Source of the DNA: Ferrigenium straubiae
Lineage (GTDB): Bacteria > Pseudomonadota > Gammaproteobacteria > Burkholderiales > Gallionellaceae
DNA: 64,000 nucleotides
Reading direction: 5' to 3'
NCBI GenBank assembly: GCA_019449655.1
Contig: JAHQXD010000001.1
Location: forward strand, 461,562 to 525,561
The position numbers and the translations under genes were made by a program. This document shows, piece by piece, positions 11,911 to 14,002 of this stretch. Positions within the stretch are counted from its first letter, which is position 1, and every line of letters begins with the position of its first letter. The notes below the pieces were generated by a model, which saw only the letters and a list, made by a program, of their open reading frames with translations, was not told the DNA's origin and searched no databases.

Positions 11911-12079
11911 GGTGGTGCTTACCGCGAACCATACTGGGCTCGACCTGAAAAACGCATAATGTATATGGAATCAAACGCATTGCGCTGTTTTTGATAGTGT
12001 TTTGTTTCGGTGAAACTGTACCGACTTCGTGCATAGTCATGATTTTCTCCCTTGCTGTCAAATGGTCTTTGCGCATCAT
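11897..12079 (-). CDS. 5' part of the att-spanning ORF, chimeric in the integrated state
   Basis: The ORF starts at ATG 12079, overlapping the stop of the upstream gene as ATGA, with GAGGGCGGA as ribosome site. It reads 45 codons to and through the left dif-like site, then 15 codons of flanking chromosome before stopping inside the 3' end of the kinase gene region. In the excised circle the same frame would continue into 13970-13662, giving a 147-residue protein. An internal ATG at 12040 has its own AGGGAG ribosome site. No homology is recognised; the N-terminal part is basic. Confidence 0.45.
   Translation of the reverse strand: MMRKDHLTAREKIMTMHEVGTVSPKQNTIKNSAMRLIPYTLCVFQVEPSMVRGKHHLNSE
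11920..11948. repeat. Partial copy of the element's right end, outside its left att site
   Basis: This flank shares TACCGCGAACC and the same stem-loop architecture with 13942-13974, just inside the right dif, with a 4-base length difference. The left hairpin is CGAACC/GGCTCG with one mismatch; the right is CGAACC/GGTTCG. It may be the remnant of an earlier element integrated at the same dif site. Confidence 0.45.
11949..11976 (+). other. Left dif-like attachment site with degenerate XerD arm
   Basis: XerC arm AAAACGCATAA (11949-11959) and centre TGTATA (11960-11965) match the right-hand dif, but the XerD arm TGGAATCAAAC diverges from TTATGTCAAAT. This is the expected outcome when an incoming att site with a poor XerD arm recombines with dif, as described for TLC-phi of Vibrio cholerae. 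Confidence 0.75.
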
Positions 12080-12540
12080 TCCGCCCTCTGTTCCGTGTTA
12101 TCCACGACCAGCCGGGGGCGTTTCGGCGGTCGCTGCTGCCGCTTCAAGGAGGGGCCACGCGTCCCGAAGGTGAACGAGTAGGGGTAGAGAACCTCCCAAT
12201 ATCCGTTTTCCTGCAAGCGCCCTTGCAGCCGTCCGGCAGCAAGCAGGGCACGGATGCGCCGGGGCGTGACGCTCCAATCCTTCGCCACGAAGGACACCGG
12301 CACGAATGAGCCGCCAAACATGCCAGGGGCGGATACGAGCTTTGCGCCTTTCGGGGTTGGCTGGCCGGCCGATTCGCTGTCCATCACTGCCCCGAGAGCA
12401 TCGAACGGCTTGGGGCATCGAGGAGCAGCCGTGCAGTCACGCCCCTGCGGGTCGAAGCCTGCCCGGCTTTGCTCCGCGATACCCGGCAAGATGCCGTTCT
12501 TCTCGGGCGCCCAGTCCATCCAGTTTTTTTCCTTGGTCAC
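12076..12540 (-). CDS. Small winged-helix/excisionase-like DNA-binding protein
   Basis: A 154-residue protein starting at GTG 12540 with GGAGG seven bases upstream; the GTG overlaps the stop of the XafT-like gene as GTGA. Its central segment (FVAKDWSVTPRRIRALLAAGRLQG, then a Gly-Tyr-Trp strand) has the pattern of MerR/excisionase-like DNA-binding domains. The C-terminus is basic (KRQQRPPKRPR). It may be a regulator or recombination accessory protein of the element; the exact role is unknown. Confidence 0.6.
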   Translation of the reverse strand: MTKEKNWMDWAPEKNGILPGIAEQSRAGFDPQGRDCTAAPRCPKPFDALGAVMDSESAGQPTPKGAKLVSAPGMFGGSFVPVSFVAKDWSVTPRRIRALLAAGRLQGRLQENGYWEVLYPYSFTFGTRGPSLKRQQRPPKRPRLVVDNTEQRAE

Positions 12541-12995
12541 TGTGCACCTCCAATGCATCTAATTTGCGCCTGCGGCTCGTTTGGAGCCTCGACAAGGGTT
12601 CGCCTAAGGTCAGGGAAGGGGATGACCCGCTCGGCGGTTCTAGCGCGTCCCGAGCGCGAATACATCAGCCGCCACAGCCGCGCCTGTTCGTAAACCATCT
12701 CCAGATTCTCCAGGTAGCTGACATCAAAAAACCGACCGTTCGGAGCAACCAAGAAGCCGCCGCGCACCGTCCAGCCTTCCCATTCCTTGCGAGGCAGGGC
12801 GTAGCCGCGCAGGATGCGGAGCATCCGGTAGGCCATCCACGGGATGCGCGCGCCGCCGTTTTCCCAGTTCTGGATAGTGCGCGGCGTAACGTCGAGAGCC
12901 ACGGCAGCTTCCCGGCGTGTCAGGCCGGATTGCTTGCGCAGATCGCGGAAGTCCTGCGGGTCGATGTAGCGGCGGGAGCGTGGCAAGCGGCTCAT
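12537..12995 (-). CDS. XafT-like Xer recombination activation factor (HTH + DUF3653-type)
   Basis: A 152-residue protein. The N-terminal half is a phage-repressor-like helix-turn-helix (residues about 14-50: FRDLRKQSGLTRREAAVALD, then TIQNWENGGARIP). The C-terminal half has the pattern W-x-GW, then GGFLVAPNGRFFD, then EQARLWRLMY, which I recognise as the DUF3653 type found in filamentous-phage proteins and in VC1465/XafT of TLC-phi, a factor that activates XerCD recombination without FtsK. The start at ATG 12995 has GGAGG five bases upstream. It overlaps both neighbours by 4 bp. The assignment fits its location between dif-like sites; alternatively it could be a plain phage repressor. Confidence 0.68.
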   Translation of the reverse strand: MSRLPRSRRYIDPQDFRDLRKQSGLTRREAAVALDVTPRTIQNWENGGARIPWMAYRMLRILRGYALPRKEWEGWTVRGGFLVAPNGRFFDVSYLENLEMVYEQARLWRLMYSRSGRARTAERVIPFPDLRRTLVEAPNEPQAQIRCIGGAQ

Positions 12996-13432
12996 GGCAG
13001 CCTCCCGTGCTGGCTCATGGCTTGGAGCTTCTGCCAGATGGAATCCGATGCGCGCTCCGGCGAGGTGAAGACGCTCGCCGCCTCCAAAACCCGACCGGCA
13101 GGAGGGCGGATGCCTTCGGCCTCGACGGGCGGCGCGTACTGACTCGACCGCCCCGACTTCGCGCCAGCTTCGACCGCCACGGCAGAACCGCACGGGAGCG
13201 AATCGAGTGAGGCGGCAACCCCCGGCGCGCCCCGCTTCCGGGGGTGCTTCAGCAGCTTGGCAGGCGGGTAGATGCTCCATTTCTTCGACCGCGCATCCTT
13301 GCGTGCGCCGAGAATCCAGCCGCTTTTCGCGTAGCGAACCACCTGCCCGAACGTCATGCCTTCGCGCTCCGCAAAGGCTTTCAGCGTCAAGGCTCCGGCC
13401 TGCTGGTGCAGGGTAACGCTGGACTCGTTCAT
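12992..13432 (-). CDS. Small DNA-binding-like protein of the dif element
   Basis: A 146-residue protein starting MNESSVTLHQQ, with GGGAGGCAGCC before the ATG. Residues about 15-60 (LTLKAFAEREGMTFGQVVRY, then GWILGARKDARSKKW) look like an excisionase/MerR-type winged helix. The rest is low-complexity and Pro/Ala/Ser-rich. It is coupled by ATGA overlaps on both sides. Function is not known; a recombination directionality or replication-control role is a guess from fold and context. Confidence 0.55.
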   Translation of the reverse strand: MNESSVTLHQQAGALTLKAFAEREGMTFGQVVRYAKSGWILGARKDARSKKWSIYPPAKLLKHPRKRGAPGVAASLDSLPCGSAVAVEAGAKSGRSSQYAPPVEAEGIRPPAGRVLEAASVFTSPERASDSIWQKLQAMSQHGRLP

Positions 13433-13665
13433 GGCTGCCTCCCTTGCGAGGGCGGCAACCGGAACAGCACTTGCCGTTGCAGTTCGCTGGCGATCGCAGT
13501 TTCGCTCTCGAGATCGGCGGCGATGCACTTGCCCAGGGAGAAGTCCCGCTCAGTGCGCTTCAAGGCCTGCTGGAAGCTGCCCATGACCAGCAGGGCATCC
13601 GACCACGACAGGATGATCGTGCACAGTTCGGCCTCGGCTTGGGGGAGCTTTTCCGGGGCGTTCAT
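13429..13665 (-). CDS. Small unknown protein, first complete gene of the dif-element operon
   Basis: A 78-residue acidic, helical protein (MNAPEKLPQAEAELCTIILS). The start ATG 13665 has GGAGG five bases upstream and beats the upstream ATG at 13689, which has no such site. Its stop overlaps the next start as ATGA. Its own ATG overlaps the TGA of the frame that comes through 13970-13662, repeating the ATGA junction style. No family is recognised. Confidence 0.55.
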   Translation of the reverse strand: MNAPEKLPQAEAELCTIILSWSDALLVMGSFQQALKRTERDFSLGKCIAADLESETAIASELQRQVLFRLPPSQGRQP

Positions 13666-13970
13666 GGGAGCCTCCGGCAGGATGGACAAACCGGCAGAAA
13701 ACGCCCCGCAAACCCATTGAAATCGTCGGCAAAAGTCGGAACAGTTGTTTTTCGGGGTCGGAAATGCGGTGAGCCGCGCGCCGTAAGGAATTGCGGGATT
13801 TTGTGGGCTGGTTTTGGTGTCCGACCCATCGGAGTTTGTCCGGGTATTACATACGACCCGGACTTTTCCAACTGGCTGGACGGGAGGGCGGCTCGACGGA
13901 TAAGCGGGATTCTGTCAAATCCGGCTTTTTGGGCGAAACCGTACCGCGAACCGTTCCGGGTTCGGTCTTT
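13662..13970 (-). CDS. 3' part of the att-spanning ORF (start-less when integrated)
   Basis: The frame is open without a stop from the XerC arm of the right dif to TGA 13662-13664, 102 codons, and ends as ATGA with the next gene. In the integrated state a TAA in the XerD arm (13992-13994) closes it immediately upstream, so no native start remains; only an internal TTG at 13871 is available. In the excised circle it would be the C-terminal 102 residues of a 147-residue protein. It is rich in Arg, Pro and Lys, with a C-x2-C near the end (CPSC). This span otherwise has no gene; whether it is coding or a regulatory/origin region is open. Confidence 0.4.
   Translation of the reverse strand, partial: KDRTRNGSRYGFAQKAGFDRIPLIRRAALPSSQLEKSGSYVIPGQTPMGRTPKPAHKIPQFLTARGSPHFRPRKTTVPTFADDFNGFAGRFLPVCPSCRRLP
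13838..13863. other. Perfect 8-bp stem-loop inside the dif element
   Basis: GTCCGGGT (13838-13845) and ACCCGGAC (13856-13863) flank a 10-base loop and are followed by TTTT on the + strand. It could be a transcription terminator reading rightwards or a single-strand origin or packaging hairpin. Confidence 0.5.
13947..13964. other. 6-bp stem-loop just inside the right dif
   Basis: CGAACC and GGTTCG enclose a 6-base loop 10 bases from the XerC arm. A one-mismatch version occurs at the same relative place beside the left site, which suggests conserved structure near the att site. Confidence 0.4.
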
Positions 13971-13974
13971 CTGA

Positions 13975-14002
13975 AATACGCATAATGTATATTATGTCAA
14001 AT
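13975..14002 (+). other. dif: Chromosomal dif site (XerCD)
   Basis: XerC arm AATACGCATAA (13975-13985), centre TGTATA (13986-13991) and XerD arm TTATGTCAAAT (13992-14002). From memory, the E. coli dif has the same centre, 10 of 11 matching bases in the XerD arm and CGCATAA in the XerC arm. It is the resolution site for chromosome dimers at the terminus, acted on by XerC, XerD and FtsK. The strand bias of genes reverses here. The rest of the gene-free stretch to 14059 shows nothing recognisable. Confidence 0.9.

Follow-up and report, generated by a model that had tools for sequence, protein, structure and literature searches.

An integrated element of 2026 bp in the window (the whole 64,000-nucleotide stretch analyzed here, from the 2.66-Mb genome of Ferrigenium straubiae) forms, when its two Xer centers are joined, a circle of five reading frames on the same strand, each overlapping the next by 4 bp, and its attachment site lies inside one of these frames. 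We put at roughly 0.6 the probability that this frame acts as a translation relay that connects a start upstream of attP with an operon carrying xafT, a gene for an Xer recombination activation factor, and that integration disconnects the two.

The Element, Its Junctions, and Its Genes

The two TGTATA centers, at 11960–11965 and 13986–13991, are exactly 2026 bp apart (Table 1). The element sits at dif, restores dif on one side, and has no recognizable integrase of its own in family and profile searches of its genes, as is characteristic of an IMEX. Its attP combines a good XerC arm and center with a degenerate XerD arm, TGGAATCAAAC, and resembles that of TLCphi from Vibrio (PMC4246890), which also integrates at dif through Xer without an integrase and has a gene of the XafT family. 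The element-side XerD arms are variable in all relatives, and among 62 genomes of the genus, 43 have the same core as the right junction at their dif. Gene 3 scores 86.3 bits against NF040522, for which the cutoff is 70, and its DUF3653 domain matches PF12375. Activators of the VC1465/XafT family support XerD-first recombination without FtsK. Because gene 3 encodes such an activator, the window element is, on its sequence, an integrated TLCphi-like XafT satellite or IMEX that would work through the host XerC and XerD at dif, with the product of gene 3 expected to have XafT activity. It differs from TLCphi, for which an autonomous replication module has been described, in that no Rep or replication gene was matched among its genes; the comparison with TLCphi rests on PMC4246890 and the TLC-Kn1 record. 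In TLC-Kn1 (L110), xafT ends with a TAG directly before att and is not downstream of a relay through att, and a short ORF at the other end is annotated as "disrupted by TLC-Kn1 phage integration."

DNA searches with the element against phage and plasmid collections gave no matches, and a pattern scan of viral contigs recovered one already known element and nothing further. Zot or G2P-like filamentous-phage genes adjoin the elements in L002, L005, L039, and L041, and in two carriers of the genus the contig that bears the element also encodes Zot. There was no match to Zot in the genome of the window, where a helper is absent or unrecognized. In L013 (4593–5156) and L037 (4748–5167), the ORF of a filamentous-prophage regulator exits through the shared att into the neighboring satellite, so that a gene of the presumed helper would also be touched by att at its 3′ end.

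Table 1. Features of the integrated element and its attachment sites, in window coordinates
Feature	Position	Strand	Basis or remarks
Xer/dif element (2026 bp), integrated at dif	11966..13991	-	Two dif-like sites 2026 bp apart
Left junction: chromosomal XerC arm, center 11960–11965, degenerate XerD arm of the element (TGGAATCAAAC)	11949..11976	.	
Right junction: XerC arm of the element, center TGTATA 13986–13991, chromosomal XerD arm TTATGTCAAAT (complete dif)	13975..14002	.	
Relay ORF, section upstream of attP	11966..12079	-	ATG 12079; also ATG 12040 with conserved Shine-Dalgarno
Relay ORF, section downstream of attP	13662..13991	-	Open to TGA 13664–13662, which overlaps gene 1 ATG 13665
Gene 1, 78 aa, cargo	13429..13665	-	Without family match
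Gene 2, 146 aa, weakly Cox/excisionase-like HTH	12992..13432	-	Only PHROG 575, E 0.0026
Gene 3, xafT, VC1465-family Xer recombination activation factor (HTH + DUF3653)	12537..12995	-	NF040522, PF12375
Gene 4, 154 aa, conserved in family	12076..12540	-	GTG start at 12540; matched by each of the ten relatives compared
DNA repeat CGGTACAGTTT, upstream of att (-58)	12013..12023	-	
Two DNA repeats CGGAACGGTTC / CGGTACGGTTT, downstream of att (+33, +45)	13936..13958	-	
Inverted repeat copy (+244)	13737..13747	+	
Hairpin GTCCGGGT-N10-ACCCGGAC, GTA in loop	13838..13863	-	10/11 elements
Second XerD-arm-like sequence (TTCTGTCAAAT), inside the element, 82 bp from dif	13910..13920	.	25-nt repeat D3, 72%

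Closure of the Ring and the Frame across attP

The initial annotation had proposed that the excised circle closes as a ring of five ORFs, and its arithmetic is exact: 237, 441, 459, 465, and 444 nt, minus the five overlaps, equal 2026. The crossing ORF is real and extends on the center-joined sequence from ATG 12079 through att to TGA 13664–13662, encoding 147 residues in 444 nt; as integrated, the crossing protein is split in every locus. Rings with overlaps of 4 or 1 bp only are closed by 6 of 11 Gallionellaceae elements and 14 of 984 control circles, and rings that may also include overlaps of 8 or 11 and a gap of 2 by 9 of 11 elements and 19 of 984 controls; closure exceeds chance, at rates that are approximate because the controls are mutually overlapping artificial circles from the window and the limits were set post hoc. 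Three members of a second group, described below, also close under the wider limits. No ring closes on the reverse strand.

Such an arrangement might reflect genome compression only, with genes packed by 4-bp overlaps, the att placed where there is room, and no regulatory effect of integration. All of the genes do overlap, and every gene examined, including those downstream of the relay, has a Shine-Dalgarno sequence of its own, which also counts against the relay because it is perhaps not needed for translation. However, the relay is not compact, as 0.4–1.1 kb is spent on nonconserved sequence, and att is upstream of the xafT operon in both groups of elements, the second of which loses the start of xafT on integration. 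Compression by itself strikes us as very unlikely.

Eleven further complete elements of the window type are present between dif-like sites (L002–L006, L014, L016–L018, L119, and L167), with carriers among iron-oxidizing bacteria, namely Gallionella, Sideroxydans, and other Gallionellaceae MAGs. One of these, L167, was selected through dif and the CGGAAC DNA repeat rather than through XafT, and it agrees on every point concerning the relay. Two incomplete elements (L023 and L122) have no long crossing ORF and were excluded from the counts. The crossing ORF is absent from two distant relatives, L120 and L121, which counts against the relay. In all 12 elements, a conserved start, consisting of a Shine-Dalgarno sequence followed by GAAAATC-ATG or a one-base variant, is located upstream of attP at 75, 86, 95, or 96 bp from the Xer center; in the window, this Shine-Dalgarno sequence belongs to the second in-frame start, ATG 12040–12038. 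The frame set by the conserved start is free of stops through att until it overlaps the start of the next gene in 12 of 12 elements, and the earlier claim that attP lies within an open frame thus extends to the relatives. Within the first 250 nt past att, the 12 elements together have 0 stops in this frame, whereas the remaining two forward frames contain 33 and 38 and the three reverse frames 32, 36, and 32. Dinucleotide shuffles give an expectation of about 40 across the tested stretch (eleven elements); because the elements share ancestry, these counts are not independent events, and multiplied probabilities would be too optimistic. In L002 and L119 an indel has displaced the frame, and in both it is the displaced frame that is open. 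The overlap between the relay stop and the next start amounts to 4 nt (nine elements), 8 nt (two), or 11 nt (one). Measured from the conserved start, the relay is 116 to 381 codons long, and in L003, L017, and L167 it has 279–381 codons. The relay of L017 contains an in-frame domain that is encoded by a separate ORF in L018 and L119.

Constraints on the Stretch Past att

The fifth ORF had been described as a gene in which a switch of protein product on integration is built in. An ordinary protein with one C terminus in the circle and another, a chromosomal tail, in the integrated form, as in integration-dependent phage immunity, would account for a frame that is open in all elements and for the conserved N-terminal MNMxKLGTV stretch with its Shine-Dalgarno sequence. 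However, family and profile searches with the crossing ORF gave no family match and no repressor match, the GC content by codon position past att is flat (mean 0.58/0.52/0.53), unlike that of xafT in the same elements, which is high at the first and third positions as usual, and the median DNA identity past about +75 from att is 45%. The length is as variable as noted above, and the conserved block just past att is read in two frames: L002 and L001 are 91% identical over the first 56 nt after att, yet are read in different frames. We regard the protein as an unlikely explanation. The part of the earlier claim that stands is that the frame is open and is cut by integration, with the TAA of the dif XerD arm directly before it; the switch of product is weakly supported, given a peptide that is not conserved, a flat GC profile, and a frame that differs in L002 and L119. 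It had also been held that shifts or stops in this frame in homologous elements, or conservation as RNA or DNA structure only, would speak against it. A frame shift and conservation at the level of DNA are both present in the relatives; openness is kept in every element.

What the elements have in common past att is not a peptide but reading that continues without interruption into the next gene. The lack of peptide conservation and the flat GC profile, together with the repeats and hairpin in the same DNA, suggest that the "fifth gene" serves as a translation relay and is not a protein whose tail is exchanged. Since it is this continuous reading, begun upstream of att and carried into the next gene, that is conserved, integration more likely switches expression of the operon behind att than a protein product.

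Repeats of the CGGAACAGTTT type are found across the elements at -58, -69, or -79, at +33, and at +45, are rare elsewhere in the elements, and have an inverted copy at about +210 to +350. The stems of the hairpin vary in sequence among the relatives, but pairing is kept in 10 of 11. These fixed positions and the pairing of changed stems, together with the spacing of 75, 86, 95, or 96 bp near helical steps, would suit a stretch with a DNA function only, as attP and origin, in which one frame stays open as a chance result of the repeats and hairpin. The repeats do not explain the lack of stops, in 12 of 12 elements, in a frame that is set upstream and has shifted twice, nor are relays of 279–381 codons and the start-stop overlap at the far end accounted for, and a DNA function without the relay seems to us quite improbable. 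With the relay, two demands would share one stretch, namely att and origin-like DNA and unbroken reading, because the repeats and hairpin lie within it.

The distances from start or repeat to center differ in steps close to one or two helical turns, a hint of a complex between protein and DNA at attP; helical phasing was set aside as the sole cause of the start-att spacing and is retained as a possible second constraint. The second XerD-arm-like sequence aligns and is loosely conserved among relatives, and may be an accessory Xer site. It was also considered as a -35 box, but this was dropped since no -10 follows it. A search for sigma-70 promoters gave no match, which is a further point against the relay. 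On the XerC side, remnants of the first bases of the element are present in the chromosome in L019 (6974–7057, 84 bp, 98.8%), where the remnant ends at the internal XerD-like arm, in L022 (from 2942, 84 bp, 82%), in the window (11920–11965, 44 bp, 75%), and in L017 (from 7013); these are taken to be left over from earlier tandem copies. At about ten dif sites of the genus with no complete element (L166 and L168–L175), an intact dif is immediately adjoined by the first 60–90 bp of one, CGGAAC repeats included, after which the chromosome resumes.

A second, distant group was found in viral contigs (L039–L042, with extra copies in L185 and L187). In L039–L042 the crossing ORF is xafT itself (MSI...YTLCEM), with its ATG at -21 from the center. 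A Shine-Dalgarno sequence precedes this ATG; the bases before it read AGGGGTG (four contigs) or AAAGGGA (one contig), and a sixth contig does not cover this end. Integrated copies retain only an ATG at +15 without a Shine-Dalgarno sequence, and the TAA in the XerD arm of dif closes the frame upstream of it; tandem copies, as in L039, restore the complete gene. Loss of the xafT start upon integration is plain from the sequence in this group, and in both groups integration parts the operon from its upstream start.

Proposed Effect of Integration and Comparison with Known Systems

The relay is favored by the bias in stops, the frames that moved with indels, the overlap with the next start, the fusion in L017, the agreement of L167, and the loss and restoration of the xafT start in the second group. 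The circle would be a closed operon with frames chained stop to start all round. A ribosome starting upstream of attP would open the relay, cross attP and the origin-like DNA without a stop, and end on, or fuse to, the first gene of the xafT-bearing operon. Integration cuts the relay: the start remains at one end of the element and reads into the chromosome, and the operon, at the opposite end, is deprived of its upstream start and possibly of coupled translation, Rho protection, or transcription. XafT and its neighbors would then come chiefly from circles and tandem copies, favoring stable integration, and excision would call for XafT supplied by a tandem copy or superinfecting circle or by leakage. 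Circularization in vivo, translation of the relay, and lower expression of the operon after integration are expected under this scheme, and the cut just upstream of the operon for the recombination helper probably turns the helper down.

The archaeal suicidal integrases of SSV1, pTN3, and pT26-2 have their own recombination site in the gene, which is broken by integration, and excision requires an intact copy elsewhere; according to a review, self-breaking integrases are found only in archaea (PMC8371274). The elements described here are similar in having their own recombination site within a set of recombination genes but differ in that they use the host XerC/D instead of an integrase, that the cut affects the start of an activator or its relay, and that they are bacterial. 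The window element has no integrase gene containing its own att; an analogous arrangement involves xafT in the second group. In mycobacteriophage BPs, attP is in the repressor gene, and integration changes the product to a shortened, active repressor (PMC4557955). The elements share an attP within a reading frame, but no conserved protein is encoded in the frame past att, the 5′ side of the operon is lost, and the split ORF has neither a repressor match nor a conserved product. Gene pairs overlapping by ATGA, with stop and start sharing 4 nt, are known to couple translation (PMC6728339). The chain in the elements differs in being closed as a circle and broken by site-specific recombination. 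To our knowledge, which for TLCphi extends to the one paper and the one record cited above, a frame-independent relay in a closed ring has no precedent.

We propose, tentatively and at somewhat less than even odds for the whole, that satellites of this type keep a gap-free circular ring of translation with the attachment site as its breaker, closing of the circle connecting the Xer activator and integration disconnecting it, and that the stop-free corridor through attP is selected regardless of frame or peptide. This would be selection for unbroken translation without selection on the peptide. If true, bacteria would have in this breaker a counterpart to suicidal integration that works at the level of expression, parallel to the self-breaking integrases of archaea. 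It offers a testable answer to how satellites without an integrase could steer Xer recombination, in which the circle would be the ON state.
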